From: Candidatus Poribacteria bacterium
Lineage (GTDB): Bacteria > Poribacteria > WGA-4E > WGA-3G
Length of the DNA stretch: 46,053 nucleotides
Direction: 5' to 3'
Assembly (NCBI GenBank): GCA_028818705.1
Contig: JAPPNJ010000068.1
Coordinates: 1-46,053 of the forward strand
Below the pieces are notes generated by a model. That model was not told the origin of the DNA, searched no databases, and saw nothing but the letters and a program-made list of their open reading frames with translations. The translations under genes and the position numbers were made by a program. Shown here one piece after another: positions 11,134 through 35,859 of this stretch (positions are counted from its first letter, which is position 1; each line of letters starts with the position of its first letter).

Positions 11134-14100
11134 TTAGTCAACAACAAGCACTTTGCCGACAGCGTTTGCGCTATTTCCGGCCGCATTGATCGCTTCCAAA
11201 TGGAAGATATAGAGCCCTCGTGCAACGGGGTTCCCCGCTTGGTTCTTCAAATTCCACTTCACCAACTGGTCGTTCCGTTGCCCTGACACAACATCCGGAT
11301 AGGTTTGTGAAAGGATCATGTCGCCACTCCAATCATAGATACTCAAAGTGAGCTCAACTGTTTCCCCGAGCGGGACGTTGACATCAAACGAGAAGAATGC
11401 GACATCCCCTCTGGAGATTCGGAGTGGATTTGGCCACCCAAACGTCGGTTCGCGGAAAGTAAGTGACACCGACATCGTATATTCCCCAATGTCGTAGACC
11501 TCGTAGTTTCCCGCATTATCGGTGACGCGAACATCCAGATCGTACTCACCAGAACGAGTCGGTAAGAAATCAATCGACCAAACGCTCCACGGTTCCTGCT
11601 CCGCACTACTATCATCTACAACAGGGACAGGATCTATAGGTTGTTTGTCGGGACCAATACCGACGATTTCAACAAGCCACACGCCAGAGGCTGGAATTGA
11701 GATTGCGCCCTCACCACCGCCCTGCGTACCGCTTGGGTCGGAAGCTGTCCCTTCTAACGGCAATGCTTTGTCAGTGAGTTCGGTTTCACCACCATCGCTC
11801 GTTACAGCGGCAGTAGGTGCTGTAGTTTCATAAAGAAATTCTGTTGTAATGGAATTTGTCGGAGCAAACCCCAGCAATTCCGAGTCATTTCCGATACTAA
11901 TAACCGTAACCTGATAAAGCCCTTGGGTCGATAGACCATCCGATTTGAAGATGATGGTGTCTACACCGTTCTGCTGTGTATTGCCCGAAATTTCAGTGCT
12001 ATTCGGACTTCTGACAACAATTCTCGACTGGGCAAGGTTCACACCTAAACCGGTGTCAAACATATTCGCCTGTATGACAACCCCACCGGTCGTAGAAACC
12101 GCTGTCGGATAATTTTCTGCATCGATATCAACAAGTAGGGGAGCGTCATTAAGAAGTAAAGTACCCGCATCAATCAGCGGTGGACTGGTGTCATAGGTAA
12201 AAACCTTTTCATAAGATATATCACCGTTTCCCGCCTGATCCTTGGGTGTAATAGTAACTCGGTATTCACCATCAGCCGATCCATTGTCTGCAAGCGGTAC
12301 AGTAAGTATGAAGCTGAGAACACTTTGATTATCATCCTCCACCCGTCCAGCAATTTTGGCTGGGTTCGGCGAAACGCGTTCAAAGACTACCCACTCTTCA
12401 TCAACGTTTTTCCAATCAATACCGGACTGTTCATCGGTAGGGTTAACACGAATTTCCGTCAAGGAATTATTAACCTCAGGAGACGCGACAACAAGATTAA
12501 TCGCTTCAGGTTCAATTTCAGGTGCTTCCGTGTCGTGCGTGAAGTTTAATAACTGAACGTCCCCCGCTCGTCCAGAGGAACTGATTGGGGTAAACTCGAT
12601 AGTATAGATTCCGTCGTCGGAACCGTCTGTCGCAAGCGGACGAACAAGATTATAGACCAATCGGTCAGGTTCTCGCAGCTGTTGCCCAGCAATGACTTGA
12701 TTCGCAGAATTCAGTAACCGAAGCGTTGATAGATGATTTTCATCATCTGTTTCAAGCGTTATTTCTATCTCCTCAACTTCCTCATTGGTAAACGCTTCAT
12801 CTGCCGGCGCAGTCGTCGGTGATGTCGAAACAATAGCAGGCAAACGCCTTGAAAGCAGGAAACTACGCTCGAAGACGGTCGCCCCTCCGTTACCTGCACG
12901 GTCAACGGCTTGGACACGAATAATGTATCGTCCATCCTCAATGAGCTGATTGGTATTTAGCGTTAAGTGTGTCGTCCCGTCACTCACAAGTTCACCCGAT
13001 ATTTGAGATCCATTCGGGTCAACTAACGTTACCGTAGTTACCTCCCAGTCTATACCACTGCCTCCGTCATCATTGAGTGTTACTTGTACCTGTGTACGAT
13101 CAGCGGTGACCAAAGCACCGTCAGCAGGAACAGTACTCACAAGCGTCGGCGCCTGGGTATCATAGACAATGAGGTGTCCAACAGTGAACGCATTCGATGC
13201 TTTGTCGGTTAACTCGATAAGGACGGTATATTCTCCATCCATACTGCCATCACGAGACAAGGGTTCATCAAGCGTGAGAAAGAGTTCGCTATTGGTATCA
13301 TGAGTAAGTTGTGTGGGTATTAGGTTGCCATTCGCATCGCGCAGGCTAACTGTCTGGTCTGATAACTCGAGTTCTGCGGGACCAACATCCACGACGGTAA
13401 AGCGAAATTGCGTCAAATTATGGCTGATATATGAGACGGGTTGACTTAAATCAATCGGATCAGCAGAAGTTATCTCTGGTTCTTGGGTATCATAAACAAA
13501 TTCACGATAGACAGCGTTTCCTTGACGTCCGGCTTTATCAACGGGTACAACGTACACACTGTATCTTCCATCTGTACTCCCGTCAGATGTAAATGTCGTC
13601 GGTTCCCAAGCAATTAGGTCCACATTATTAGTGCCAGTAGCTCCCGAAATAGATGTACCATCAGGAGTGCTCACCAGGATTCTTGAACTCTGACTGCCAA
13701 AAGCTAAACCTGTTTCTGTCGGATCAAGGAGTGCAGCAACTATAACCATATTGCTGGCGTTGACATAAGCAACATCGCTTGTCTGACCACCTATAGCAAC
13801 ACTATCTACACTCGGCAGCGGTATATCCAGAACGAATTCGTAAGTCGCCGCGCCTGATGTCGAATTACCCGCTATATCTTGAGGCATCACAGACAATATA
13901 TACGAACCAACCTCAGTCAATTCCAAGAAATTAACAACGACCTCAGACATACTATCGTCTTCCAACGTCAGCGGGATTGGCAGTCTCACAAGTTCATCAG
14001 AGGCATTAAACTCCTCAGGTCCCAGTAATGTAATCTGAGTATTGGAAAAATCAACGCGGGTCGCCTCTTCAAATTTAAGGGTAATACTACTTATAGATTC

Positions 14101-17100
14101 TAATATCTCAGTAACCTGCTGAGGTAGAAGCGCCATCGGCGAAGCAGTATCTACTATGACAGAAGATAACCGCGGTGCTTGCGAATCATAAACAAGTTTA
14201 TGCTCAGCATCAAGACGATTTCCCGATTTGTCAACGAGTGAAAATTTTATCAAATATTCCCCATCTGCACTACCATCTCGAGGAAAAGGTGCAGCAAAAG
14301 TCAGATAGAGTTGGTTGTTTATCTCATCAGTAGTGAGTGTCCCTGCAACAGGCACGCCATCAGCATTATGGAGTTCAATTGTTTGATCTTCTAATTCCAA
14401 ACCTGCCGGTCCCACATCTTCAACGGAAAACTGAAGTTGCGTTAAAGTACCACCAATATAGGAAACAAGCTGGCTCAAGTTGACCGGCACTGCTGCAGTT
14501 ACGCGAGGTTCTTGCGTATCGTAAATGAACTGACGATAAACGACTTCGCCTCGTCTACCCGTCCTATCCACAGGCGTGACAGCGACCGTGTAACGCCCAT
14601 CTGCACTCCCGTCGGTCGGGAGAACTATGGGAATCCATGTTAACTGATTTGTGCCATTGGATGTGGTAATACCGGGGGCAGGGAGACCACTCTCGTTGGT
14701 AACGGTGATCGTTGAACCACCCTCGCCCAAAGCCAACCCAACACCAGTGGGATCCGCGAAGGTAGCGACTATTGACGTAGAGGTCCCATTGACGTAGACA
14801 ATTGTGCCAACTCTTCCATCAATTAAAACGGAACCCACAATAGGTAAAGCTACATCAATCTGAAATCTATAAACAAACGGCGCTGTGCTTTGGTTACCCG
14901 TTAAATCTTGCGGTGTAATCGAGAGAACATATTCACCAGGCTGCGTCAAGTTTCGGAAATTGAGTGTTAAGGTAGTTCGTCCATTATCGAAACGGTTGAT
15001 AGGTATATCCTCGCCACCTGGACTCACAAGGGTAATAGTTGTATTCGCAAAGTCAACGTCACTACCGGAAATCAGTAAATTTTCCGCTACGTTTTGAGAC
15101 GGATCCTTAAAATTTACAATAATCTGTGAGAAACCTACAGTGATATTCGTTGTACTATCAGTAGAAAGTACCAAATCGGATTCGGTGCCGACTCGGACAC
15201 TTTCAATTGCCGGAAATTGTGTATCCAAGAGAAGCGGAAATGCCTGCGTAAAGCGTTTTCCCGTGAAATCAAGGAACGTTGCCGTTATCGTGTATTCGCC
15301 ATCTGCAGTGCCATCGCGTGGAATTACCGCATCGGTACTCCAAGTTAAGATGGTATTCGTTGCATCGGTTTCAATCCTTCTCTCTGGAATAACAACACCC
15401 TGAGAATTGGCAACTGTAAGGGTTGATTCGTCGACATTAATACCAGGACCGATATAATCGATAAGTTCGGCGACAATCACATCCAAATTATTGACTGTTG
15501 TCGTTTCAGGTATTGTTAACTCAACTTCAGCTCGGCTCTGGCTAACAAGATAAAACTCACGCCGAGCAGTAGCACCAATATTGCCAGCACGGTCAGTTGG
15601 TATAACTTCTATAGCATACGTGCCATCGTCAGAACCATCCAAGGCAATCGGCTCTAACACCGTCAAAGTGGCAGTATCCGTTCCGTTATTTGTGATATTA
15701 ACAGGAACCTCCACCTGGGTTCCACCAACATTGTGTATTAACCGAAAACTACTCTGTGTAAAATCTATACCACTGGTCACTTCATTGAGAACAACCCGTA
15801 CCTGTGATAAATTGTCGACAGTCTCATTCGCTGATGGAAAGGTAGATACAAGAGTTGGCAATTGAGTATCATAGAGAAGTAGGAACGCCTCCATATCCAT
15901 ATTACCGATCGTATCGGCGACTTGGACTTCGAGTCTATAGCGGCCATCTTGGCTGACGAGAGGCTCTTCTAAAACGTGGGTAATTTGCGCGTTATTTCTA
16001 TCTATAAAGGTACGACCGGGTAGCACCTCACTCGTATTTCCATCTCCAATAGCACTAAACTGAATCTGCGTGTTCTCCTCAAAATCAACGCCGATGCCAG
16101 TACTGCCATCATTAAATGAGGCAACAATCTGGGTAAGAGGTTGATTATGGTAAATCGTATCTCCAATTCGGTTAAAAGCACCCCCATCTTGGGTCGGACT
16201 TAAAGAGACAATCTCCGGGGCAAGATTATCATAAACAAAAGGAATACGAACAGCACTACTCTGATTACCTGCCCTATCCGTTCCTACAACTTCAATGGTA
16301 TATCCACCATCATGAAGACCATCTCTGGGTGATAAAGGCGATAGAAATACCCACCGAATTTTATCCTTCGCTGGAAATGTCTGCCTACCTAAAATCTCAC
16401 CTGCCGGACCTGTGAGACGTATCGTCGAATCAGAGAGATTAACACCATTTTCAAAATTATCCGCGAGGATAGCTTCAACAAAATTTAACCTTTGGCTAAC
16501 GCCTGCGCCAGGAGAGATCACACCGCTGCTGCCAGCGACCCCTGTCAAAGTGGGTGCCACATTATCGAAAGTAAATTCAGTTGTGCTTTGAACGGAATTG
16601 CCTGCTTCATCAAGGAGGGTAACTGCCAACGTATAACGCCCATTCTCGGAACGTATATCTAAAGGATCTGCCAAGTTAAAACTCAGCTGCGTTGTATAAC
16701 TGAGGGCACCATTAAGCGCAACGCCTTGAGCGTTTTTTAAGACGACCACTGTCCGCTTCGCACCGAAATCAATAGGACTTCCCTCATCTGCTTCCGGTAC
16801 TACAGTTATAGCGCGGAGCGGCACATTGATGAAAATGCCATTGGTAAGCAACAGATTGGTATCCTGGTTGGCAAATACGCTGGAGATGCGCGGCGGTTTC
16901 GTATCTAAAATAGCATCTGCAGATCTTTCTAAGACTTCGCCAGCGGCACCCGCCTTGTTGAGGACAACACTAATTGTATAATTCCCGTCTGGCAACTGCC
17001 TATTGTTAATAGTCCCATTCCAACTGATACGGACCGATTGATCTGCGGACACAGTACCACGTCTAATAAGATGTTGATTCGCTGTGACAATATAGGAATC

Positions 17101-17532
17101 TCCATCATCATCAGTGTTATCATCAACGGTAAAAACAATACTTAAATGCTCCTGCTTCCCCCTAAAAATCGTATCACCGTTTGCATCAAGTGATAAACTC
17201 GTGAGACCTGCCCAAACATCAGCGGGCACCATCAAGACCGCGAGACAGACAAAAATCTGACTTATGATAGCAAGTTTCAGCTTGCAAGCTTCGCTGAAAG
17301 TGAGAACATTTACTAAACCTAAACCAGTTTTTCGCACTTTGGTGGTAGGATAGTCTCCGAGATGACGCTGATCTCGACTTTTGTGTATCGGCTTGCAAGC
17401 AACACCGCACATATTTTTAATTTTTGGCACTCGTTTCTCCCTGCTTGTGGCGAGCCAGAAGGTAATTAAATCGGGAACTCGCGTTGCAGGGGATGTGTCG
17501 GTAACATCCCCGTATTTTTTGTTGCTTCCCAT
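11134..17532 (-). CDS. giant exported Ig-like repeat protein with FlgD-like C-terminal domain
   Basis: Up to 2132 residues. A hydrophobic signal segment (KLKLAIISQIFVCLAVLMVP, ending ADVWA, about residues 85-109) is followed by about 16 beta-sandwich repeats of roughly 110 residues. They are bounded by [YF]-D-[TN]-x-x-P-x-[IL] and hold D-G-S-A-D-G-x-Y-x-[IV] and D-x-[AT]-G-N motifs, as in cadherin/Big-type adhesin repeats. Residues about 767-1113 and 1114-1453 are two copies of a three-repeat unit. The last about 85 residues (TLSIYDWSGDMILSQTYPDV, GLYIFHLEAIN) form a FlgD-type Ig domain, often found at the end of type IX and related exported proteins. The start is uncertain: ATG 17532 and ATG 17412 lack ribosome sites and leave 85 or 45 residues before the signal; GTG 17337 would give a more normal signal peptide. 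It is probably a surface adhesin or matrix protein. Confidence 0.85.
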   Translation of the reverse strand: MGSNKKYGDVTDTSPATRVPDLITFWLATSREKRVPKIKNMCGVACKPIHKSRDQRHLGDYPTTKVRKTGLGLVNVLTFSEACKLKLAIISQIFVCLAVLMVPADVWAGLTSLSLDANGDTIFRGKQEHLSIVFTVDDNTDDDGDSYIVTANQHLIRRGTVSADQSVRISWNGTINNRQLPDGNYTISVVLNKAGAAGEVLERSADAILDTKPPRISSVFANQDTNLLLTNGIFINVPLRAITVVPEADEGSPIDFGAKRTVVVLKNAQGVALNGALSYTTQLSFNLADPLDIRSENGRYTLAVTLLDEAGNSVQSTTEFTFDNVAPTLTGVAGSSGVISPGAGVSQRLNFVEAILADNFENGVNLSDSTIRLTGPAGEILGRQTFPAKDKIRWVFLSPLSPRDGLHDGGYTIEVVGTDRAGNQSSAVRIPFVYDNLAPEIVSLSPTQDGGAFNRIGDTIYHNQPLTQIVASFNDGSTGIGVDFEENTQIQFSAIGDGNTSEVLPGRTFIDRNNAQITHVLEEPLVSQDGRYRLEVQVADTIGNMDMEAFLLLYDTQLPTLVSTFPSANETVDNLSQVRVVLNEVTSGIDFTQSSFRLIHNVGGTQVEVPVNITNNGTDTATLTVLEPIALDGSDDGTYAIEVIPTDRAGNIGATARREFYLVSQSRAEVELTIPETTTVNNLDVIVAELIDYIGPGINVDESTLTVANSQGVVIPERRIETDATNTILTWSTDAVIPRDGTADGEYTITATFLDFTGKRFTQAFPLLLDTQFPAIESVRVGTESDLVLSTDSTTNITVGFSQIIVNFKDPSQNVAENLLISGSDVDFANTTITLVSPGGEDIPINRFDNGRTTLTLNFRNLTQPGEYVLSITPQDLTGNQSTAPFVYRFQIDVALPIVGSVLIDGRVGTIVYVNGTSTSIVATFADPTGVGLALGEGGSTITVTNESGLPAPGITTSNGTNQLTWIPIVLPTDGSADGRYTVAVTPVDRTGRRGEVVYRQFIYDTQEPRVTAAVPVNLSQLVSYIGGTLTQLQFSVEDVGPAGLELEDQTIELHNADGVPVAGTLTTDEINNQLYLTFAAPFPRDGSADGEYLIKFSLVDKSGNRLDAEHKLVYDSQAPRLSSVIVDTASPMALLPQQVTEILESISSITLKFEEATRVDFSNTQITLLGPEEFNASDELVRLPIPLTLEDDSMSEVVVNFLELTEVGSYILSVMPQDIAGNSTSGAATYEFVLDIPLPSVDSVAIGGQTSDVAYVNASNMVIVAALLDPTETGLAFGSQSSRILVSTPDGTSISGATGTNNVDLIAWEPTTFTSDGSTDGRYSVYVVPVDKAGRQGNAVYREFVYDTQEPEITSADPIDLSQPVSYISHNLTQFRFTVVDVGPAELELSDQTVSLRDANGNLIPTQLTHDTNSELFLTLDEPLSRDGSMDGEYTVLIELTDKASNAFTVGHLIVYDTQAPTLVSTVPADGALVTADRTQVQVTLNDDGGSGIDWEVTTVTLVDPNGSQISGELVSDGTTHLTLNTNQLIEDGRYIIRVQAVDRAGNGGATVFERSFLLSRRLPAIVSTSPTTAPADEAFTNEEVEEIEITLETDDENHLSTLRLLNSANQVIAGQQLREPDRLVYNLVRPLATDGSDDGIYTIEFTPISSSGRAGDVQLLNFTHDTEAPEIEPEAINLVVASPEVNNSLTEIRVNPTDEQSGIDWKNVDEEWVVFERVSPNPAKIAGRVEDDNQSVLSFILTVPLADNGSADGEYRVTITPKDQAGNGDISYEKVFTYDTSPPLIDAGTLLLNDAPLLVDIDAENYPTAVSTTGGVVIQANMFDTGLGVNLAQSRIVVRSPNSTEISGNTQQNGVDTIIFKSDGLSTQGLYQVTVISIGNDSELLGFAPTNSITTEFLYETTAPTAAVTSDGGETELTDKALPLEGTASDPSGTQGGGEGAISIPASGVWLVEIVGIGPDKQPIDPVPVVDDSSAEQEPWSVWSIDFLPTRSGEYDLDVRVTDNAGNYEVYDIGEYTMSVSLTFREPTFGWPNPLRISRGDVAFFSFDVNVPLGETVELTLSIYDWSGDMILSQTYPDVVSGQRNDQLVKWNLKNQAGNPVARGLYIFHLEAINAAGNSANAVGKVLVVD

Positions 17533-23621: not shown

Positions 23622-25037
23622 ATGTTAATAACACTTATTCAGAAAGAAATGATGCATCATATTCTGAGTGTCCGATTTGTCGCGCTCCTCGTGATGTGTC
23701 TTTTACTAATTCCGCTCACTCTGCACATCAATTATCGCAATTATCTCCAAAACCAAGTCAATTATCAAGCATCTATCAAACTCTCAGTTGCAGAAATCGA
23801 TGATGCACTTCATCCCCTTCGGGATCCGCCCGCCCCAGATGTAGAATTTTCTAAACTTTTTCTCGAACCCACACCTTTAAGCGTGTTTGCGAAAGGTTTA
23901 GAGGAATCGCTTCCCAGTTACCTTGGGATGACACGCAACGGTGTAAAACAGGGTTCAATGTCACTTGGGGAAGCTCCACTCTCCTCTGCTTTGGGAAACC
24001 TCGATTTTCTGTTTGTCGTCAGCACTGTCTTCAGCCTGCTTGCACTCCTATTTACGTTTGATGCTGTCGCAGGCGAAAGAGAGGCAGGGACACTGCGGAT
24101 AACCTTGGCAAACGCACTCCCTCGTGATCTCTTCTTATGGAGCAAGTTGATTGGCGGATACATTGTTTTTGTCCTTCCGTTCCTCGTAGCGTTCCTCTTA
24201 GGTTTGCTCCTGATCGTTTCGCAAGGGTTTCCCTTGGGTGAGGCTGATATCTTCTTACGAGTCTCCAGTTTAACGCTCATCTCGCTGCTCTACATCGGCG
24301 TATTTTTTGCAATAGGGACCTTAATTTCCACCTATTTAGACAATTCCAAGACGGCACTCATTGTAGCCTTTACTGTCTGGGTGCTCGCCGTGTTGATTGC
24401 CCCACGCGTCGGATTTCTCACCGCTAAACTTATTGCACCGACACGCGCGATTCAGAGCGTCTATATGGAAAAAACGGCGATTCGTAATAACCTCAATGCA
24501 GAAAAGGACGAAATGATTGTAAAAAAAATGCTCACTTTAGGAAATCTTAACCTCAACAAGGATCACGAAAAAATTAAGGCACTCAGGGAACCGATTGATA
24601 CCGAATATCGACAGAAATTTCAGGAGCAAGTCAGCAAAATCGAGCGAGCATACCAGCGTGAAAAAAAGCGGCAAGAATCAGTCGGAGAAAATCTTTCTCG
24701 AATCACACCAACATCTTCGCTCATTTATGTTGCCATGAATTTAACGGAGACTGGAAAAATAAAAAGAAACACCTATTTTGAAACCGGGACTCGTTATTAT
24801 AACCAACTTGAGGAGGCGTATTTCAGTGAAATTTCGGACGATCAATTTGCGAGGATGATGCGATTCACATCTCCTGATTCACCAAAACCAAAGAAAATCG
24901 CACCGCCGCCAGACGTGACAGAAACCCCTTTATTAGAAACCCTTCGGCATTCTGCGGCGGATCTACTGCTGCTCTGTTTTTTAGCGGTGGCACTAACAAC
25001 CGCGGCGTTTCTAAAATTCTTCAGATTGGATATTTGA
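23622..25037 (+). CDS. ABC-2 type transporter permease, type A copy 1
   Basis: 471 residues from ATG 23622, preceded by ACGGAGACT. Architecture: first membrane helix at about 14-36 (SVRFVALLVMCLLLIPLTL), an extracytoplasmic loop to about 125, then membrane segments near 130-155, 180-205, 215-240 and 250-270, a charged loop with an amphipathic helix, and a last helix at the C-terminus (about 445-465). The motif FTFDAVAGEREAGTLRITLA between helices 2 and 3 is the coupling segment of ABC-2 permeases of the DUF3526-like type. It needs an ATPase partner; the nearest in the window is at 39158. The substrate is unknown. The gene is a close paralogue of that at 26361. Confidence 0.87.
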   Translation: MLITLIQKEMMHHILSVRFVALLVMCLLLIPLTLHINYRNYLQNQVNYQASIKLSVAEIDDALHPLRDPPAPDVEFSKLFLEPTPLSVFAKGLEESLPSYLGMTRNGVKQGSMSLGEAPLSSALGNLDFLFVVSTVFSLLALLFTFDAVAGEREAGTLRITLANALPRDLFLWSKLIGGYIVFVLPFLVAFLLGLLLIVSQGFPLGEADIFLRVSSLTLISLLYIGVFFAIGTLISTYLDNSKTALIVAFTVWVLAVLIAPRVGFLTAKLIAPTRAIQSVYMEKTAIRNNLNAEKDEMIVKKMLTLGNLNLNKDHEKIKALREPIDTEYRQKFQEQVSKIERAYQREKKRQESVGENLSRITPTSSLIYVAMNLTETGKIKRNTYFETGTRYYNQLEEAYFSEISDDQFARMMRFTSPDSPKPKKIAPPPDVTETPLLETLRHSAADLLLLCFLAVALTTAAFLKFFRLDI

Positions 25038-26360: not shown

Positions 26361-27776
26361 ATGTTAATGACCCTAATTCAGAAAGAAATTATGCATCACA
26401 TTCTCAGCGTCCGATTCGTCGCGCTCCTTCTGATATGCCTCTTGCTTATTCCGCTCACCCTCTCCATTAACTATCGAAATTACCGCCAAAATCTCGTCGA
26501 CTATCAAGAAGCCGTTAAACTGGCAAATATTGAAGAGAAGACAGTCAACCCGAAGATGCCGCTGGAACCGGAGATTGAGGTTTCCAAACTTTTTCTCAAA
26601 CCTACACCCTTAAGCGTCTTCGCAAATGGATTAGGACATGCATTGCCGAGCTACCTTGGAATGACGCGCAATGGAATTGTCCAAGGAGCACCATCTTTAG
26701 TCTCAGATTCCCTCTCTTACCTTTTAGGACATCTCGATTTTCTTTTTCTTGTAGGCACTGTTTTCAGTCTGCTTGCGCTGCTGTTTACCTTCGATGCCGT
26801 TGCTGGAGAACGAGAAGCAGGCACCCTTCGCATTACCTTAGCAAATTCCCTCCCGCGTGACCTTTTTCTCTGGAGCAAGTTAATTGGTGGATACCTCGTG
26901 TTCGTCGTTCCGTTCTTGGTGTCGCTTCTATTTGGTTTACTCGTGCTTGTTTGGCAAGGTTTTCCCCTTGGTGAATCCGAAATTTTTCCACGTGTGCTTA
27001 GCCTAATTCTCGTCTCGCTCCTCTACATCGGCGTATTTTTTGCAATAGGGACCGTAATTTCAACCTACTTAGATAACTCCAAGACAGCACTCATTATCGC
27101 CTTTACCGTTTGGGTGTTCGCCGTGCTAATTACGCCACGCGTCGGATTTATCGCGGCGAAATTCATCGCTCCCACACAAACATCACAGAGCGTCTATCTC
27201 GAAAAGACCGCGCTCCGCGAGAATTTCAACGCAGAACTTGAAGAGAAAAAAAAGGAAATACACCAAGAATTCTGGAAAGATCGGCCCCGATCTTCCTTTG
27301 AAGAACAGATAGCGGGGGGAAAAGAGATAGATAAACAGGGGCAACCGCTTGAGGAAGAACTCCGACAGAAATTCAAGGATAGCGCTGACGAAATAGACCG
27401 GCGTTATAAGCGTGACAAAACGCGGCAAGAAGCGGTCGGTGAAACACTCTCCCGAATTACACCTACATCCTCCCTCATTTATCTCACTACGAACTTAACT
27501 CAGACCGGAAAAAGAAAAAGAAACAACTATTTTCAAGCAGGCGATCGCTATTACGATGCACTTGATGCAGATTTGTTCAGCAAAGTCGTAGATCACATCT
27601 CTATGAGGACCATGAGACCAGAAGATACTGTCAAAATCACACAACCGCCTTCCTTAGAGACTATAGCCTTAGGAGAGACATTCCGTCAATCGGCAGTGGA
27701 TGTGTTGCTGCTCTGCTTCTTCGCGGTAGCACTGACAACCGTAGCGTTTCTGAAATTCTTCAGGTCGGATATTTAA
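26361..27776 (+). CDS. ABC-2 type transporter permease, type A copy 2
   Basis: 471 residues from ATG 26361 with TAAGGAGCACACC as ribosome site. Same length and architecture as the 23622 gene: HHILSVRFVALLLICLLLIP helix 1, FTFDAVAGEREAGTLRITLA coupling motif and DNSKTALIIAFTVWVFAVLI later on. The copies are almost the same in the membrane core, but differ in the first loop (about 45-60) and in the charged region (about 285-350), where residues 294-330 (KKKEIHQEFWKD and on) are unlike copy 1. Thus the membrane part is conserved and the soluble loop diverges, which suggests different partners. The pair may form a heterodimer. Confidence 0.87.
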   Translation: MLMTLIQKEIMHHILSVRFVALLLICLLLIPLTLSINYRNYRQNLVDYQEAVKLANIEEKTVNPKMPLEPEIEVSKLFLKPTPLSVFANGLGHALPSYLGMTRNGIVQGAPSLVSDSLSYLLGHLDFLFLVGTVFSLLALLFTFDAVAGEREAGTLRITLANSLPRDLFLWSKLIGGYLVFVVPFLVSLLFGLLVLVWQGFPLGESEIFPRVLSLILVSLLYIGVFFAIGTVISTYLDNSKTALIIAFTVWVFAVLITPRVGFIAAKFIAPTQTSQSVYLEKTALRENFNAELEEKKKEIHQEFWKDRPRSSFEEQIAGGKEIDKQGQPLEEELRQKFKDSADEIDRRYKRDKTRQEAVGETLSRITPTSSLIYLTTNLTQTGKRKRNNYFQAGDRYYDALDADLFSKVVDHISMRTMRPEDTVKITQPPSLETIALGETFRQSAVDVLLLCFFAVALTTVAFLKFFRSDI

Positions 27777-28124: not shown

Positions 28125-29453
28125 ATGAAAAATGACGCTGAATTAATTCGCCGCACACTTGAGGGCGATGAAATCGCTTTCACCACGCTCGTAAAAAAAT
28201 ATCAGAAACAGGTTCACGCCCTGGCGTGGCGCAAAATTGGGGACTTCCATATTGCTGAAGATATTACGCAAGAAACCTTTCTGAAAGTGCACCAGAATCT
28301 GACAACCCTGAAAGAACCAGATCGGTTTCCGGGGTGGTTGTATGTGATTGCGACACGTCGCTGCATTGCGTGGATCCGTAAAAAACGGCTGCACGCTCAA
28401 CTCGTGGAGGACATCGACCTAATGAAAAAAGGAAAAGACACCTATTCCGAACATGTGGCAGACGAGCAAGCAAAAACGACAACTGAGGCACAACGAGAAG
28501 TCGTCAAAAAGTTGCTTATCAACCTACAAGAGAGCGACCGCACTATCATAACGCTATACTACTTTGGAGAGATGACGTATGAAGAAATTAGCAAGTTTTT
28601 GGGGGTATCGGTAAATACGATTAAGAGTCGGCTCAGCCGCGCACGTCAACGTCTGAAGAAGGAAGAACCCTTGATTCAAGAGGCACTCGGTAACTTCCAA
28701 ATTTCCCCAAATTTGACCGAGAACATTTTCCAAGCCGTAAAAGACAAAGGCGGTAGCATCAAACCTGTGCCACCTAAAGGGAATAAACCCTTGGTCCCCT
28801 GGGCGGCTGCGTCAACCGCTATCGTGGCTGTGTTGATCCTCGGAATGGGTAATGAATATATAGCCCACTTCCAGCAACCCTATAGTCTGGAAGCGACTTC
28901 GGAGATGAAGATCGATATCGTGGAGGTTCCTCTAACCTCTATAAGGCAGGTTAAACCGACCGTGAAAACCCAACTTGGTCGTACAGATACCCCGGGGAAA
29001 AACAGCGGATCCAGTCCACAAGCAGATACCCACCGAATCGCAGCGCTCGAAGCGAAGGACATGGAAGTTTCAACAGAAGAAACACAACAGACGCAGATAG
29101 AGGTATTGGACTTTTTTCGGATGCCGGAAAGCGGGCATTTGGAGTATACCGTCGTCCAAATTGATGCCACAGCGTTTGAAGACGGCGGGACACTAACGAT
29201 TGATATTCGAGTTGGCAGCGGCGAAGCAGCGGGTTCATTCGACCTATTTGATGGTGATAGTGAACTTCCAACGGGAGGCATACGGAGGGCAGATGCAGCA
29301 CTTGCAAACCAGTGGGGAATTCCACCTGGCGGAACAGGGACAATCACCTATCAATTTGACAAGGGTCAAGCCTTTCAACTCGGGGCTACAAGTGATTACC
29401 ACAGTGAAAAAGGAAGTACCAACGCCTTTCACGCACGAATTTCTATTCGGTAA
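28125..29453 (+). CDS. ECF sigma factor fused to membrane anchor and exported C-terminal domain
   Basis: 442 residues from ATG 28125 (CTGGAGGTGG ribosome site). Region 2 covers about 10-85 (HALAWRKIGDFHIAEDITQE, GWLYVIATRRCIAWIRKK) and region 4 about 130-180 (ESDRTIITLYYFGEMTYEEI, SVNTIKSRLSRARQRLKKE). A linker leads to a single membrane segment at about 225-241 (WAAASTAIVAVLILG). Behind it an exported linker and a 116-residue domain (327-442) with FEDGGTLTIDIRVGSGEAAG and TITYQFDKGQAFQLG. That domain is also the C-terminus of the adjacent selenoprotein. A sigma factor that carries its own anchor and sensor needs no separate anti-sigma, and none is seen; release by proteolysis would be one way to act. 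It is probably the first gene of the operon with the two selenoproteins (64-base gap). Confidence 0.88.
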   Translation: MKNDAELIRRTLEGDEIAFTTLVKKYQKQVHALAWRKIGDFHIAEDITQETFLKVHQNLTTLKEPDRFPGWLYVIATRRCIAWIRKKRLHAQLVEDIDLMKKGKDTYSEHVADEQAKTTTEAQREVVKKLLINLQESDRTIITLYYFGEMTYEEISKFLGVSVNTIKSRLSRARQRLKKEEPLIQEALGNFQISPNLTENIFQAVKDKGGSIKPVPPKGNKPLVPWAAASTAIVAVLILGMGNEYIAHFQQPYSLEATSEMKIDIVEVPLTSIRQVKPTVKTQLGRTDTPGKNSGSSPQADTHRIAALEAKDMEVSTEETQQTQIEVLDFFRMPESGHLEYTVVQIDATAFEDGGTLTIDIRVGSGEAAGSFDLFDGDSELPTGGIRRADAALANQWGIPPGGTGTITYQFDKGQAFQLGATSDYHSEKGSTNAFHARISIR

Positions 29454-29458
29454 CCCCC

Positions 29459-29485
29459 GTAGGGGCGGGGTTACCCCGCCCCTAC
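29459..29485. repeat. 12-bp perfect hairpin between the sigma and selenoprotein genes
   Basis: GTAGGGGCGGGG-TTA-CCCCGCCCCTAC starts 6 bases after the sigma stop and ends 32 bases before the next ATG. It is very stable and would reduce readthrough or protect the downstream message. The GTAGGGGCG stem suggests a REP-like dispersed repeat. Confidence 0.6.
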
Positions 29486-29517
29486 TTATCCTTTCAATTT
29501 TTGCACGGAGACTTAAA

Positions 29518-31185
29518 ATGAAAACATTCAGCATCGGAACCCTTCTGATTTCTGTCTTATTTTTTCCATACTGGGGGTCCGCAGACGAGACACCTACTCC
29601 CAACAGAGTTGTTCTCACACTTGGGAGCCATTCCCAAGTGTTGGTCAAAGGTTTCATTGCACCAATTGCGTATACCCAAAGCAACTTCCATGTAGAGTGG
29701 AATACATTGGCGAACCTACGAGTCGCTGAACCCGAAAAGCAGTATCTGACTTCGGTCTTTCGGGCGTTTCTTCCGACGGAAGCAGGGTTACGAAAAGGGA
29801 GTGGAAAAACGTTCCTCCAAAGATTGCAGCACCTCCTCCGCGAAAATCCGACATCACGCGGAAATGGTGTCTCCGTTGGCGAAGTCTGGCAAATTGAACA
29901 AGACGGCCTGTTAACTTTGCTAAAACAACTTCACCCGCGTCCAAATCTGGGTATGCACATCAATTGGGGGGATTCCCGTGGGGCATGGGCGTGCCTCCGT
30001 GCTTACAATGACGAAATAGCCCACATTGTGTTTCGCGTTCATGCAGAGTTCAGGTTAGAGGACGGCTGGTTTACACCCTCACAGTTTACTGGGCATCTCG
30101 TCATCAACCGTCCAGATGAGAAAGTCGTTTTCTTTCAAATGTACGTTCCTCACGGCACACTCAACTTCGATGTCAACCGACACCGGGACGACGGTATCAC
30201 CATTACGGATGCAGGCTTTTGCCCGCAAATCGAGCTGCGCGTCGGTACAGAAGATATAATTCAAGATACCCAGTTTTCTGAAGCAATATCCTTAGCAGAA
30301 GCCGAACGTACCTTAATACAACGTTTTTACAAATCACAGCAAATTAACTGGGTATCGGTAGACGAAGCCTTAGAGATCGCACACGCAGAACAGAAACCGA
30401 TTCACATTGTCTCAACAGACGGCCCACTGACCGACGAAGCATGCTGAGGGAGTGGCAAAGGCTTGAGAGCAGTTGCTCTCTCTGATAACCGAAATATTGA
30501 ACTCTTGAACAAAAATTTCATCAACACGTGGGTGCTCAATACTGACATGGAACGCTTACGGGATTCAAAAGCACTTGATGAAATGTCGCCTCTGACTCGA
30601 ATAATCATTCAGGGATGGAAGCGATTCTCACCTGTAGATTGTTTGATTATCTCACCAAAACTTGAACTTATGGGCAGGCAACCTGTTAACGAGCTTCCCC
30701 TGCGTAATAAGGCAGAGGCGTATCGGTTGTTCCTTGTGGGAACGTTAGAAGGAAAACACCCTGGCGTCGGTGAAGACACCCCGATGCCGTTATCAAACAG
30801 TCGGTGGGTTGTCCTCGACCGGATACAACCCTCTGCAGAAGTATTGGACACTTTTCAGACGACAGATACTGATTCCCAAGATTATACCATTGTCCGAATT
30901 GATACGACCGCCTTTGAAAACGGAGGCACACTGACTATTAACATTCAAGTCGGCAGAGCAACCTCAGTAGGTTCGTTTGATTTGTTCGCTGACGGCACCG
31001 AACTCCCCGCACAAGGGTCGCCTCAGGATGCCCTCGCCCAAGCATGGGGGATCCAATCCGGTGAAACGGGAACACTTACTTATCAGTTTGACAAGGGCCA
31101 GGTCTTTCAACTGCGTGCTACCGGGGGTTGGGTCGATGAGAAAGGGAGCATTAACGCTTTTCGAGCCCGGATATTCGTTCGATAA
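29518..31185 (+). CDS. selN: selenoprotein N (SELENON) homologue with Sec at TGA 30445, fused to sigma-shared domain
   Basis: 555 residues if the in-frame TGA at 30445-30447 is read as selenocysteine (Sec310). ATG 29518 follows CACGGAGACTT. Signal peptide MKTFSIGTLLISVLFFPYWG (cleavage after SADE region), so it acts outside the cytoplasm, equivalent to the ER lumen where SELENON resides. IVFRVHAEFRLEDGWFTPSQ, FTGHLVI and LNFDVN match the SELENON core; a thioredoxin-like segment follows with DEAC-Sec-GSGKGLRAVALSD and LLNKNFINTWVL, equal to the S-C-U-G site of SELENON. Residues 442-555 are an added domain (FENGGTLTINIQVG, TLTYQFDKGQVFQLRAT) shared with the neighbouring sigma factor. No EF-hand is seen. 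A SECIS-like hairpin lies 17 nt after the TGA. Read naively it would be split into two genes. Confidence 0.88.
30465..30480 (+). promoter_or_regulatory. bacterial SECIS-type stem-loop (first selenoprotein)
   Basis: GAGAGC-AGTT-GCTCTC, a perfect 6-bp stem with a four-base loop, starting 17 nt after TGA 30445-30447. Loop position (24 nt after the TGA) and a G among the first two loop bases fit the bacterial SECIS model, in which SelB binds the loop and inserts Sec. The stem lies inside coding sequence for L-R-A-V-A-L. Confidence 0.75.
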
Positions 31186-31273
31186 ACTCCCGATCGACTT
31201 CTCTGAGAAATTAAGCAACTTTTCGTTCTTAGATTGTATCTTTATATTCCTGTTCATTGTAAGGAGGTAACAG

Positions 31274-32518
31274 ATGAAAAGAAATTTGTTAATCACCCCA
31301 ATTTTGGTAGTATCAATTATTGGATTAAGCCTAAGCCTTCAAAGTTGCAGCACTAACAAGATAAACCTACGGAACATATTGGATACAAGGGAAACCATAC
31401 AGGTGCAGGCATATTGGGATCCGATTGCGGATGCCTCGCTCGGAATGCCCAATTCTTCACCCAAGCACGAAGCCCTTTTCAACAACCTTTCACCAGCGCA
31501 CCCAAGTCAAGAATATGAGATGGACGCTTTCAAAGCCTTTCTTCTAACAGGCTCTGTTCCCGTCGGACACGTATGGGAACTGGATGTCAACGAAGTCCTC
31601 CCCTTTCTCCGGCAGTTTCACTCAGGTGCAACGAGTGAGATGCATATCAATCCAGGTGGAGAAGCTGCCATAGAACCATTTGGTTGGCGTATAGTTCTGA
31701 TAAAGGTAGGTCTGGAGTCAGAGGGTGCCTTCGCATGTCTTCGCGCACTTTCACCGACGCATGCTGAAATTGTCTTCAGAATCCATGCTGAATTTCAATT
31801 GGATAAGGAGGCGCGTGCTTACTTTACACCTGCACAATTCACTGGCAGATTAATACTTAATCGGAACAATGGGACGATTCGCGACTTTTGGCTCCATCTC
31901 CCGCCCCGCAATACCAATGTCGATATTAACGCCTTTGGAAGCGCAGATATGGTGTTTGTGCCCCGTATGGAACTTATTGGACAGAACACGTATGACAAGA
32001 GCGATATTGTCTGGGAGACTGCCATAACCGAAAACGAAGCGAAAGACTTGTTGGAGGCTCCGTTCTACAAGTTTTCAGAAATTGAGAGACTCCCTATTGA
32101 GGAGGCTGTCGCACAAGCACAAGCCGAGAATCGTCCTATTCATGTGGTCCTGACATGGGGTGTGTTTGATGCCGAATCGTGCTGAGCGAGCGGTAAAACC
32201 TTGAGGGCAGTTGTCCTCTCCGATTCAAAAATCATAAAACTGCTCAATAAGCACTATGTCAATACATTCGTTCTGATTAAGGATTTACGTAAACTTCAAA
32301 ATGGAACACAGAACGAGTCAGTAAGTAAATTCGTAAATACGGTCTCCACAACGTTTGAAGAGGCCGTCGCGCGGGGAGTAGATGGTTCGGTAAACAGTTT
32401 TGTACTATCGCCCCAATTGGAGCTGATAGGTCATTTACCTTATCAGGATCTAAACATGAATGCCATTAACGAAACATATCTGACCTTTCTAAAGGATTCT
32501 CTGACCAAAAACAAGTAA
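31274..32518 (+). CDS. selN: selenoprotein N (SELENON) homologue, lipoprotein form, Sec at TGA 32183
   Basis: 414 residues with TGA 32183-32185 read as Sec304. TAAGGAGGTAACAG precedes ATG 31274. The N-terminus MKRNLLITPILVVSIIGLSL ends in S-L-Q-S-C, a lipobox, so the protein should be a membrane lipoprotein facing the periplasm. The core is closer to vertebrate SELENON than the first copy: IVFRIHAEFQLDKEARAYFT, PAQFTGRLILNRNNGTIRDF and NVDINAF, then ENRPIHVVLTWGVFDAESC-Sec-ASGKTLRAVVLSD and LLNKHYVNTFVLIKDLRKLQ, ending with TYLTFLKDSL. It lacks the extra C-terminal domain. Spacing (88 bases) suggests co-transcription with the first copy. Function in vertebrates: ER redox and calcium-linked oxidoreductase; the bacterial role is unknown. 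Confidence 0.88.
32203..32218 (+). promoter_or_regulatory. bacterial SECIS-type stem-loop (second selenoprotein)
   Basis: GAGGGC-AGTT-GTCCTC: six pairs including one G-U, loop AGTT, starting 17 nt after TGA 32183-32185. Compared with the first copy the fourth pair is G-C in place of A-U and the fifth G-U in place of G-C, so pairing is kept while bases change. Confidence 0.75.
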
Positions 32519-32610
32519 GTGCAGCTTGAAGCAGCATCTTTACCGACTGCCGAAAGTGAGCGGAGCTAACGCCCCGACCGCCGACAGCCATTAATAACGA
32601 GGTTTCGATT

Positions 32611-34086
32611 ATGTTATACACCCTAATACGCCAAGAAATTCTCACCCTTATGATGAGCGCGCGATTCCTTGCTGCTGTCGTCATTACGCTTCTGCTCGTC
32701 GTCGCCAATACCATCGTGCTGATTGACGAGCACAAAAACCGAGTGGCAAGCTACAGCCAGCAAGAACAGGTTCATCATGAGAAAGCCATAGCGGCGGAAA
32801 CCTATTCGCAGTTAGAACTCTTTGTTGAACGGCCCCCGAATCCCTTAAGTCTCTTTAGTGCCGGGTTGGATAAACGAATCGGAACGACGGTTGAAATTTA
32901 TCACGGCGAGGTACCGACAATTTCAAGTGTCTCCGCACGAAACCTGGAGAATCCCTACCTAAATCTTTTTTCACAGATTGATCTGGTGTCTATCTTTCAA
33001 GTCGTGTTGAGTCTACTCGCCCTCCTCTTTGCTTACGATGCGATTGCTGGCGATTGGGAAAGCGGCACCCTGCGTCTGGTTATCTCGCACCGAGTGAGGC
33101 GGGGGGCCATCCTGTTTGGGAAATATATCGCTGCCATGATATGCTTGCTGCTGCCCGTGCTGATGAGCCTATTGATGGTAATGCTTCAACTTTCCCTCGC
33201 GAGTTCGATTCAGCTGGGGACAACAGATTTTCTTAGAATTGGCGGAATAGTCGCCACCACAATTATCTACCTATCCGTTTTCTACCTGATTGGACTGTTG
33301 ATTTCCACCATGACCCGCCGCACTGCTACGTCCCTGATGCTCTGTATGTTCTTATGGGTCGCTCTGGTGCTTGTTTATCCGAACTGGAGTCGGTTTACCC
33401 TTAATCCCGTGGGCAACATGCGCGCAGAAAGACAATCCGCGAATCAACAGATTGATCAGATTTGGGAAGAAGCAGACAGGGAAGAAAAACGTTTTTTAGC
33501 CAACAGTCCGCTTGAGGGGGAGCCTCCGCGGTTTAATATCGGTTATTCAGGCTCCTCTTCCTCTGCCGGCAGAAAATATGGGTTTAACATGACCAAAGTG
33601 AACGCGAGTTCAGAGCCGAGCCTCCCACATTTCCAAAACTATCAGGCATTCATCGGCGCGACGCACATTCGCGCCGCGGAAAAGGCTGGGTTGATAAACG
33701 AACAGCGTTGGGCACGCACCGCCATTCGGCAAGCAACATGGGATGAACGGTTGATGAAATTCAGCCCGGCAAGCCTCTATACCTTTGCAACTTCCGCCTG
33801 GACGGGCACGGATCTGAATGGCATGTTAGATTTTATCGGCACAGTACAGACGTACCGCCAGACGCTGATTGACTATTTGCGCGATAAAGACGCGTTTGCG
33901 AGTCGACAGTGGTTTGCTTCTGACCAAGGTGCCGTGGATTGGTGGGATTTGCCAAGGTTTCGCTTTGCACCGGCGGATGTCTCCGAAAACGCACAACGCG
34001 CCTTGGCAGATGTGTCCCTCCTTTTCCTCATGAATATGGTACTGTTTGTGGTGACATTCCTGATCTTTGTCAAAGTTGAAGTTTAA
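32611..34086 (+). CDS. ABC-2 type transporter permease, type B
   Basis: 491 residues from ATG 32611. Helix 1 at about 12-35 (SARFLAAVVITLLLVVANTI), further helices near 130-155, 185-210, 220-245 and 250-270, and a C-terminal helix (DVSLLFLMNMVLFVVTFLIF). The coupling segment FAYDAIAGDWESGTLRLVIS is the type-B version of that in the type-A permeases. The long soluble loop (about 280-430) ends with YRQTLIDYLRDKDAFASRQW, nearly repeated in the truncated gene at the right edge. It follows the second selenoprotein by 92 bases and precedes the type-C permease; with the ATPase at 39158 it probably forms an exporter of unknown substrate. Confidence 0.86.
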   Translation: MLYTLIRQEILTLMMSARFLAAVVITLLLVVANTIVLIDEHKNRVASYSQQEQVHHEKAIAAETYSQLELFVERPPNPLSLFSAGLDKRIGTTVEIYHGEVPTISSVSARNLENPYLNLFSQIDLVSIFQVVLSLLALLFAYDAIAGDWESGTLRLVISHRVRRGAILFGKYIAAMICLLLPVLMSLLMVMLQLSLASSIQLGTTDFLRIGGIVATTIIYLSVFYLIGLLISTMTRRTATSLMLCMFLWVALVLVYPNWSRFTLNPVGNMRAERQSANQQIDQIWEEADREEKRFLANSPLEGEPPRFNIGYSGSSSSAGRKYGFNMTKVNASSEPSLPHFQNYQAFIGATHIRAAEKAGLINEQRWARTAIRQATWDERLMKFSPASLYTFATSAWTGTDLNGMLDFIGTVQTYRQTLIDYLRDKDAFASRQWFASDQGAVDWWDLPRFRFAPADVSENAQRALADVSLLFLMNMVLFVVTFLIFVKVEV

Positions 34087-34299: not shown

Positions 34300-35859
34300 A
34301 TGATCGGACATATTATTCAAAGAGAGTTCTTTGACCATCTCAACAGTCTCCGCTTTGCCTTGACTGTCATCATCATGGCTGCACTCATGGTAACCAACGC
34401 CGTGGTGCATCTTCAGAGCCATCCAGACAAAATCCGGAACTATTCCGAGAACGTTGCCAGTGACCGCGACAAATTGCAGTCGCGGACAGAACTCTATGAA
34501 TTGCTGAGGAAGGGGCCCGGAAAACTTTACAAACAGCCATCTGCACTGACTTTCATTGCAGACGGTGGAAATGCCTTTCTGCCGGATCGTGGAACACAAA
34601 ATTGGGGATCTTGGAGTAGAACTGCGGGATTCGGCACACAGGTCAAAAGCATCTGGTGGCTGCACTATCCCACCACCAATCCGAACGCGCGAGACCTGCG
34701 TCCCCAGGCGACAAAGATAGACTATGTATTTATCATTACCTATCTGCTCTCTTTCATCCCGCTCCTGTTTACGTTTGACGCACTCTCTGGCGAAAGAGAA
34801 CGCGGAACGCTTCGGTTGTGTCTCGCGAACTCGATTTCGCGGCCCGCCCTATTAATCGGAAAGTTCTTAGGCACCCTGATAGCTGTCCTTATTCCCTTCT
34901 ATTTCGCGGTCCTGCTGAATCTGACGGTAATTTCTACAGATAGTTGGACGCAGCTTGGAGCGGCAGACTGGGGACGTTTGGGGATGATTATGCTGATCGC
35001 CTCAGGCTATGCGAGTATCTTTATCGCAGTAGGGTTGATGGTCTCTGCCGGCACGCGAGATACCCGTGTGAGCCTTGTCGTGCTATTGATTATCTGGGTG
35101 GCACTCGTCGTCTTTATGCCTTCTACCCTCGGCACACTCGCCACAAAGTGGATGTCCCCCGTCCAAACCGCTCACCAGTGGAAAACCGCAAAAAGGAGCG
35201 CCCTTGAGCCGATTCAAGATGATTTTAATCAGCGAATAACTGACAAACAAGCAGCAAAGTCACAAACTGGAAATCTCCTCAATCAATTCATGGACCTTAT
35301 GAAAACTTCGCCTAAAGAGGCGGAAAAATTGGCAAAGGAGAAAGAGGCAGAACTCATGGCGGCGATGGCGATGGCGGAATCCCAAAAAGCAGATGAAGAA
35401 GAATTGCGTATCAAGGCTGAATTCGTCAACAAAGATGTTGAAATTCGGGAGCGGCTGAACCGAGAGCATCTACAGGCACAACTCGCACAGGTCCAGCGCG
35501 CACGGATGGTGACGCGGTTCTCGCCGGCAGCAATCGTCCAATACGCCCTCGAATCAATGACTGGCACCGGGTTGAAACGTCACTTGCAATTCATTGAAGG
35601 TGTGCACCTCCATATCAGAGCGTTCCGAAATTTCGTTATCGAAACAGATCGTGCCGATACAGAGAGCCTTCACATTATCGGAATCCCAGAGGGAATGTCT
35701 AAAAAGCCGATTTTACCGCAGGCACTTCCTACTTTTGAGGATAAAATCACTTTCAGCGACACGTTCAACGCAGCGCTAATGGATATGCTGTTACTCGTTG
35801 GATTGCTCGGTGTGTTTATTTTTGGCGCGTTCTTCGTCTTCATCCGCTCAGATGTGTAA
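34300..35859 (+). CDS. ABC-2 type transporter permease, type C
   Basis: 519 residues from ATG 34300 (MIGHIIQREFFDHLNSLRFA). ABC-2 coupling motif FTFDALSGERERGTLRLCLA; five to six membrane segments between about 15 and 290 plus one at the C-terminus (LLLVGLLGVFIFGAFFVFI). A long soluble region (about 300-480) is helical and rich in Glu/Lys/Ala (EKLAKEKEAELMAAMAMAES), probably coiled coil, and ends with TDRADTESLHIIGIPEGMSK. That C-terminal segment and the N-terminus recur in the minus-strand permease at 43862, so they are paralogues. The type B and C permeases probably pair. Confidence 0.86.
   Translation: MIGHIIQREFFDHLNSLRFALTVIIMAALMVTNAVVHLQSHPDKIRNYSENVASDRDKLQSRTELYELLRKGPGKLYKQPSALTFIADGGNAFLPDRGTQNWGSWSRTAGFGTQVKSIWWLHYPTTNPNARDLRPQATKIDYVFIITYLLSFIPLLFTFDALSGERERGTLRLCLANSISRPALLIGKFLGTLIAVLIPFYFAVLLNLTVISTDSWTQLGAADWGRLGMIMLIASGYASIFIAVGLMVSAGTRDTRVSLVVLLIIWVALVVFMPSTLGTLATKWMSPVQTAHQWKTAKRSALEPIQDDFNQRITDKQAAKSQTGNLLNQFMDLMKTSPKEAEKLAKEKEAELMAAMAMAESQKADEEELRIKAEFVNKDVEIRERLNREHLQAQLAQVQRARMVTRFSPAAIVQYALESMTGTGLKRHLQFIEGVHLHIRAFRNFVIETDRADTESLHIIGIPEGMSKKPILPQALPTFEDKITFSDTFNAALMDMLLLVGLLGVFIFGAFFVFIRSDV

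Follow-up and report, generated by a model that had tools for sequence, protein, structure and literature searches.

Tandem homologues of selenoprotein N with a candidate selenocysteine in Candidatus Poribacteria

We analysed a stretch of 46,053 nucleotides (further referred to as the window) from a Candidatus Poribacteria genome, namely contig JAPPNJ010000068.1 of assembly GCA_028818705.1 (6.04 Mb in 232 contigs, 95% complete), with the focus on two neighbouring genes, copy 1 and copy 2, each of which is interrupted by an in-frame TGA codon. It is, in our judgement, highly probable that both encode homologues of the luminal part of selenoprotein N (SELENON), the animal protein behind a human muscle disease, with a UGA that is likely read as selenocysteine (Sec) with the aid of a hairpin, and with products predicted to be exported, thioredoxin-like oxidoreductases. 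As judged from sequence, the SELENON family is not confined to eukaryotes. The two genes are located in the window as follows:

29518..31185, +, copy 1, SELENON homologue of 555 amino acids if read through, with TGA as residue 310 (Sec candidate), a signal-peptide-like N-terminus and an extra C-terminal beta domain at about residues 430-555
30445..30447, +, in-frame TGA of copy 1, at the place of Sec in the SELENON motif
31274..32518, +, copy 2, SELENON homologue of 414 amino acids if read through, with the Sec candidate as residue 304
32183..32185, +, in-frame TGA of copy 2

With TGA translated as a residue, each gene forms one open frame with exactly one such codon, and the read-through translation confirmed an earlier reading of the bare letters (the sequence-only reading) in that the codon directly follows Cys and precedes [GA]-S-G-K-x-L-R-A in both copies. 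That reading had described frames in two pieces joined by a single TGA, which stands; its starts of the second pieces, 30463 and 32201, are simply the first TTG past the TGA, and the downstream frames are open from 30448 in copy 1 and 32186 in copy 2. Inspected by eye, the starts of both genes are preceded by a ribosome-binding-like sequence, copy 1 begins like a signal peptide, and the N-terminus of copy 2 (LSLQSC) appears lipoprotein-like, in agreement with the suggestion that one copy is a lipoprotein. The added domain attributed to copy 1 is its C-terminal domain, which is also carried by the sigma-factor gene upstream. Structure prediction gave a predicted local distance difference test score (pLDDT) of 86.6 and a predicted template modelling score (pTM) of 0.80 for copy 2; the model of copy 1 was weak (mean pLDDT 67.7), and its Foldseek matches, assorted beta sandwiches for the C-terminal part, were not used. 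Neither Pfam (no match in either copy at E 0.01) and NCBIfam searches nor PDB sequence searches with both proteins returned anything significant.

The kinship with SELENON proposed in the sequence-only reading held against named vertebrate sequences in searches both ways and with shuffled controls. The vertebrate set was taken from a protein database, and many of its members carry the name selenoprotein N; database matches here and below are the best 120 of 172, the best 120 of 505 and the best 120 of 372 proteins. By BLASTP, copy 2 aligned to named vertebrate SELENON with up to 164 bits and 33% identity across 360 residues. Built from 12 bacterial rows, a profile matched all eight chosen vertebrate proteins (117-187 bits) and no member of a set of 1000 shuffled sequences. 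The reverse profile, built from the eight vertebrate proteins, retrieved both copies, with 153 bits for copy 2 and 120 bits for copy 1. Blocks FRIHAEF and PAQFTG are common to both sides, and the TGA site falls within the SELENON motif S-C-U-G-S-G, the bacterial flank being [GA]-[STN]-G-K-x-L-R. Vertebrate SELENON is described as having Sec in an S-C-U-G motif and a thioredoxin-like domain (PMC12839072, PMC7474598), and a thioredoxin-like domain likewise surrounds the candidate Sec of the bacterial proteins.

The vertebrate protein has an EF-hand around D80 (PMC7474598); the long alignments start at residues 38-40 in copy 2 and at residue 119 in the database protein P0245, and since they begin past the vertebrate EF-hand region, only the luminal redox part is shared. 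No luminal calcium-binding EF-hand was found in copies 1 and 2, either by Pfam at E 0.01 or from the alignment starts. The bacterial proteins are therefore best described as homologues of the luminal part of SELENON and not as SELENON proper. As regards the type II single-pass topology, copy 2 is lipoprotein-like, and in a fusion protein found in a related locus (L083) the sigma domain is followed first by hydrophobic residues and then by the SELENON part. All trees in this study are quick trees; that of SELENON separated eight vertebrate from 49 bacterial rows by a fully supported branch and, being unrooted, gives no direction of descent. Overall, the bacterial proteins resemble vertebrate SELENON (SEPN1) in about 360 residues of homology, the place of the Sec motif and the predicted non-cytosolic location, and differ from it in the missing EF-hand, a SECIS-like (selenocysteine insertion sequence) hairpin inside the coding region, many paralogues, N-termini that are lipoprotein-like, signal-peptide-like or a sigma factor, and, in copy 1, the extra C-terminal domain. 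The thioredoxin-like chains of DsbH, AGR2/AGR3 and the endoplasmic reticulum (ER) protein O95881 (1sen) have a motif of C-x-x-C type, whereas the bacterial copies have an adjacent C-U pair and a large N-terminal beta domain. Algal SELENON, likened here by description and not by sequence, is another Sec-containing SELENON outside animals, albeit a eukaryotic one (PMC7539508).

The codon at the site was then compared in 149 distinct family copies, as 180-base contexts drawn from the window and 136 loci: it was TGA in 147 and GGC in two, and not the random mixture of stop and sense codons that the sequence-only reading had named as evidence against itself. A family-profile search of six genomes gave 60 rows, five of them pieces short of the site; all 55 that reach it have TGA inside, two of these together with a TAA. 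Two in-frame TGA were reported in each of the copies G010:C1:3622577-3623686 and G003:C107:18905-19993; the scan of the 149 copies found none with two TGA inside the matched domain. Both flanks of the codon are under purifying selection. The ratio of nonsynonymous to synonymous differences (pN/pS) for seven copy-1 orthologues, two Gly forms included, was 0.255-0.316 before and 0.251-0.335 after the site; for copy 2 it was 0.18-0.33 before and 0.32-0.46 after in eight rows, two of which have identical figures and likely represent one genome, and a ninth row, a paralogue, gave 0.55 and 0.54. A sequencing error, already discounted in the earlier reading, or a pseudogene is ruled out by the conservation of TGA at the same place and by these ratios.

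Were the TGA a true stop, the genes would encode exported proteins of 303 and 309 residues ending in Cys, with a separate or dead gene behind each. Public gene calls do end there: among 239 listed database proteins, 160 terminate in [EQ]-x-Cys like the window copies, and the downstream part is often called as a protein of its own (of the others, 60 end elsewhere and were left out of the site evidence, 18 span the site and one was unmatched by the profile). Nevertheless, the downstream frame is open for at least 101 codons in all 141 copies whose end is covered and is under purifying selection, vertebrate SELENON and the relatives with Gly or Cys at the site run through as one protein, and a hairpin kept at silent sites lies directly behind the TGA, which makes termination at this codon very improbable. 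A changed genetic code is ruled out as well, because TGA ends the five window genes cited for this purpose in the earlier reading (5461, 20397, 25037, 26061, 37743) and serves as the terminal stop of 44 of the 141 family copies.

The hairpin has the following position and sequence in the two genes:

30465..30480, +, SECIS-like hairpin of copy 1, GAGAGC-AGTT-GCTCTC
32203..32218, +, SECIS-like hairpin of copy 2, GAGGGC-AGTT-GTCCTC

In copy 1, 17 nucleotides separate the TGA from the stem and 23 separate it from the loop. Codons +6 to +11 past the TGA form six pairs in most copies, and the bases at the loop place in the 147 TGA copies are AGGT (69), AGTT (49), GGGT (26) and ACGT (3); a shifted fold in the GGGT copies leaves GGT in the loop, and the two GGC copies retain the stem with AACT as the loop. 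Codon choice is strongly skewed at the paired positions: Arg +7 is AGR in 147 of 147 copies (against 24%), Leu +11 is CTC in 143 of 147 (against 18%), and Leu +6 ends in G in 143 of 144 (against 40%). The stretch +5 to +13 was more stable than the mean of its amino-acid-keeping shuffles in all 113 distinct regions, with z from -5.5 to -0.5 and a mean of -2.2, whereas at five control offsets within these genes, with 60 stretches per offset, mean z lay between -0.24 and 0.19. The hairpin is kept by silent codon choice, and the arrangement agrees with that of bacterial selenoproteins, i.e. an in-frame UGA with a hairpin shortly downstream.

The machinery for Sec insertion, the lack of which (no selA, selB or selC) had been named as an argument against the sequence-only reading, was found in the same genome, with selC solely as two overlapping pieces at contig ends. 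selA is complete (596 bits), selB is complete and over the cut-off, and selD has an in-frame TGA of its own, in K-C-A-G-U-A-S-K. The pieces of the tRNA-Sec gene were located via a relative's tRNA-Sec, to which both are 100% identical:

G000:C202:1-52 and G000:C27:1-53, tRNA-Sec (selC) pieces, the gene being cut by a contig break next to selB; the selB contig carries bases 1-52 at its end, and another contig bases 42-94 at its own

Five Rfam selC candidates below the cut-off in this genome were rejected, as ARAGORN identified them as ordinary tRNAs (Trp, Ser, Ser, Leu, Lys/Glu). In relatives, tRNA-Sec scored 70.6-78.1 bits in 20 of 21 cases and 48.1, just above the cut-off of 47, in the remaining one, the anticodon being UCA in all 13 checked; selB exceeded its cut-off in 59 of the 64 family-bearing genomes by hand tally. 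It should also be added that partial selA matches at G000:C78:2539-3462 (model 1-308) and G000:C154:3-488 (model 292-452) occur besides the complete gene and represent either a second gene split over contigs or contamination.

Relatives with a sense codon at the site had been expected to carry Cys. Among the listed database proteins, the 18 that extend across the site have mostly Gly instead (14), followed by Trp (2), Thr (1) and Cys (1). In the copy-1 orthologue group, 15 Gly rows are interleaved with 47 UGA rows, with nine changes on the quick tree, six of them forced by its starred branches, and Sec-to-Gly replacement recurs there instead of Sec-to-Cys. DNA was read for two Gly copies (G001 L015:2428 and G009 L016:2242), which have no G left in the hairpin loop; the other 13 rows are database proteins with the gene-calling code unchecked (P0003-P0013, P0015, P0019). 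Replacement of Sec by Gly has a precedent in formylmethanofuran dehydrogenase of Planctomycetes (PMC4807772), and for that reason the Gly forms alone are not taken as new. The prevalence of Gly and its repeated substitution for UGA would also suit insertion of another amino acid, Gly or Trp, by a suppressor tRNA or through ordinary leakiness. To this we attach very little probability, given selA, selB, selD and the selC pieces in the genome, the genuine stops that TGA forms elsewhere in this genome and family, the missing loop G in both Gly copies with DNA, and Sec in this very motif of vertebrate SELENON (PMC12839072). Reading of the UGA as Sec is very likely.

Certain observations weigh against this interpretation. 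The usual exchange between Sec and Cys is nearly absent among the listed site-spanning relatives (Cys in 1 of 18), and the five of 64 family-bearing genomes without selB over the cut-off are all 73-83% complete. The gene models behind the vertebrate database rows mostly pass over Sec (38 of 120 rows read SC-SGRTLR, and 70 of 120 lack such a motif), and the match of UGA to Sec consequently relies on the flanks and on the S-C-U-G motif as described in PMC12839072. As for the hairpin, only 51 of the 113 regions were individually reached by five or fewer of 200 synonymous shuffles, a single 60-nucleotide fold of copy 1 has a minimum-energy structure other than the hairpin, the 60-nucleotide z-scores of five folds were weak (-2.1 to 0), and an Rfam search over 29400-32700 returned no SECIS match and nothing credible. 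Finally, redox activity, export and the sigma-factor link are predictions, and the roles of a periplasmic reductase and a sigma sensor are inferred.

If UGA is read as Sec, the hairpin, which starts 18 nucleotides past it, would be bound by SelB and so aid the insertion. The resulting selenol, with its Cys neighbour (C-U), could reduce or reshuffle disulfides outside the cytoplasm, in a compartment that would be the topological equal of the ER lumen, the workplace of SELENON. A neighbouring or fused membrane-tethered sigma factor of the extracytoplasmic function (ECF) type might then read that redox state, probably being freed by proteolysis by analogy with other tethered ECF factors.

The candidates for such a partner are the following:

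28125..29453, +, ECF sigma factor, likely partner gene of copy 1, with Pfam Sigma70_r2 and r4 over cut-off
L083:1825 and L084:1828, -, sigma-SELENON fusions with in-frame TGA

The window gene comprises sigma residues 1-180, a predicted membrane helix at about 226-243 and, on the predicted non-cytoplasmic side, a C-terminal domain resembling that of copy 1. All nine copy-1 orthologues examined (the full-length best matches of copy 1, two Gly ones included) have a gene for a predicted membrane-tethered ECF sigma factor within 2.5 kb upstream, at 2.3 kb in G001 and, measured from where the sigma domain ends, at 0.8-1.0 kb in the other eight. The link might still be accidental, the family consisting of plain periplasmic reductases and the fusions reflecting a shared membrane anchor or shuffling of C-terminal domains; we give this nearly an even chance. 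Across the whole family, 2.5 kb of sequence before the gene was available for 86 copies, of which only 6 have a sigma gene there and 80 have none, and only two of the 149 copies, L083 and L084, are in-frame sigma-SELENON fusions with TGA. Besides the nine orthologues, the accidental link is opposed by the fusions themselves, including the 690-residue database protein P0124 with the same layout and Cys at the site, and by the C-terminal domain of copy 1, which is present in 26 of the 38 sigma frames of the loci, with overlapping loci counted separately.

Of the 24 distinct sigma frames whose tail exceeds 150 residues, 23 show a hydrophobic 19-residue window past the sigma domain. The proteins share an ECF sigma domain, a membrane helix and an extracytoplasmic domain with the tethered factors ECF52 SCO4117 and ECF243 IutY (PMC8999054), membrane insertion being predicted here, and differ from them in that the extracytoplasmic part is the C-terminal domain of copy 1 or a UGA-bearing SELENON-like domain. 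As tethered ECF factors are already known (PMC8999054), the sensor module would be the new part, and SELENON-like domains may constitute extracytoplasmic redox modules of tethered sigma factors. Tentatively, and with less than even confidence, we propose that Sec acts as a transcriptional switch in Poribacteria, where a SELENON-type domain on the outer face of a tethered sigma factor, fused to it or as its partner, reports the extracellular redox state to RNA polymerase, and that the animal ER enzyme descends from this bacterial family and acquired its EF-hand later.

The tandem pair noted in the sequence-only reading is real and turned out to be a small piece of a large paralogous family. Six genomes, the own one first, have 5, 12, 8, 15, 6 and 9 site-bearing copies by hand tally, where the count of 15 includes two gene pieces and one copy with TAA. 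Relatives of copy 2 occur in 64 of 84 genomes of the phylum and 6 of its 21 genera, and those of copy 1 in 30 of 40 genomes. A contig scan with copy 2 returned two loci, both Candidatus Poribacteria and 80% identical; no relative was matched on plasmids. Further clusters of neighbouring SELENON-like genes with in-frame TGA were seen at G018:C1:3777982-3786972 and G083:C1:3895849-3903440 and, in G005, at C1:1239911-1246784 and 5401873-5409367.

Other features of the window include a perfect, G+C-rich 13-base inverted repeat with one base between its arms at 29459-29485, between the sigma gene and copy 1, which is either terminator-like or a mobile repeat and recurs nowhere else in the window when up to 3 mismatches are allowed. 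Four ABC-2 type permease genes surround the selenoprotein pair (23622-25037, 26361-27776, 32611-34086 and 34300-35859), and a 2132-residue protein with many matches to bacterial immunoglobulin-like domains is encoded at 11134-17532 (-).

SELENON has been regarded as an animal protein that has relatives in algae (PMC12839072, PMC7539508), and its EF-hand is treated as a metazoan accretion in PMC7016017, the available part of which names no bacterial SelN. Our search of titles and abstracts, with subscription papers and preprints outside its scope, found no bacterial or prokaryotic SELENON among the entries listed (in three of the searches 20 of 30, 15 of 789 and 15 of 44), the literature searched had no match for Poribacteria together with selenoprotein, and the main text of PMC5029168 has no match for Poribacteria or SelN. 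Table 1 of PMC13188914 (May 2026) has no SELENON entry among its 119 prokaryotic selenoprotein families, and relative to that list the family is new. No structure of SELENON had been solved in 2020 according to PMC7474598, and a bacterial lipoprotein-like homologue without the EF-hand would make the product of a human disease gene more tractable for structural and enzymological work. Such a homologue would also be informative on how SELENON arose, and its fusions with sigma factors mark the SELENON domain as a candidate sensor of redox state.
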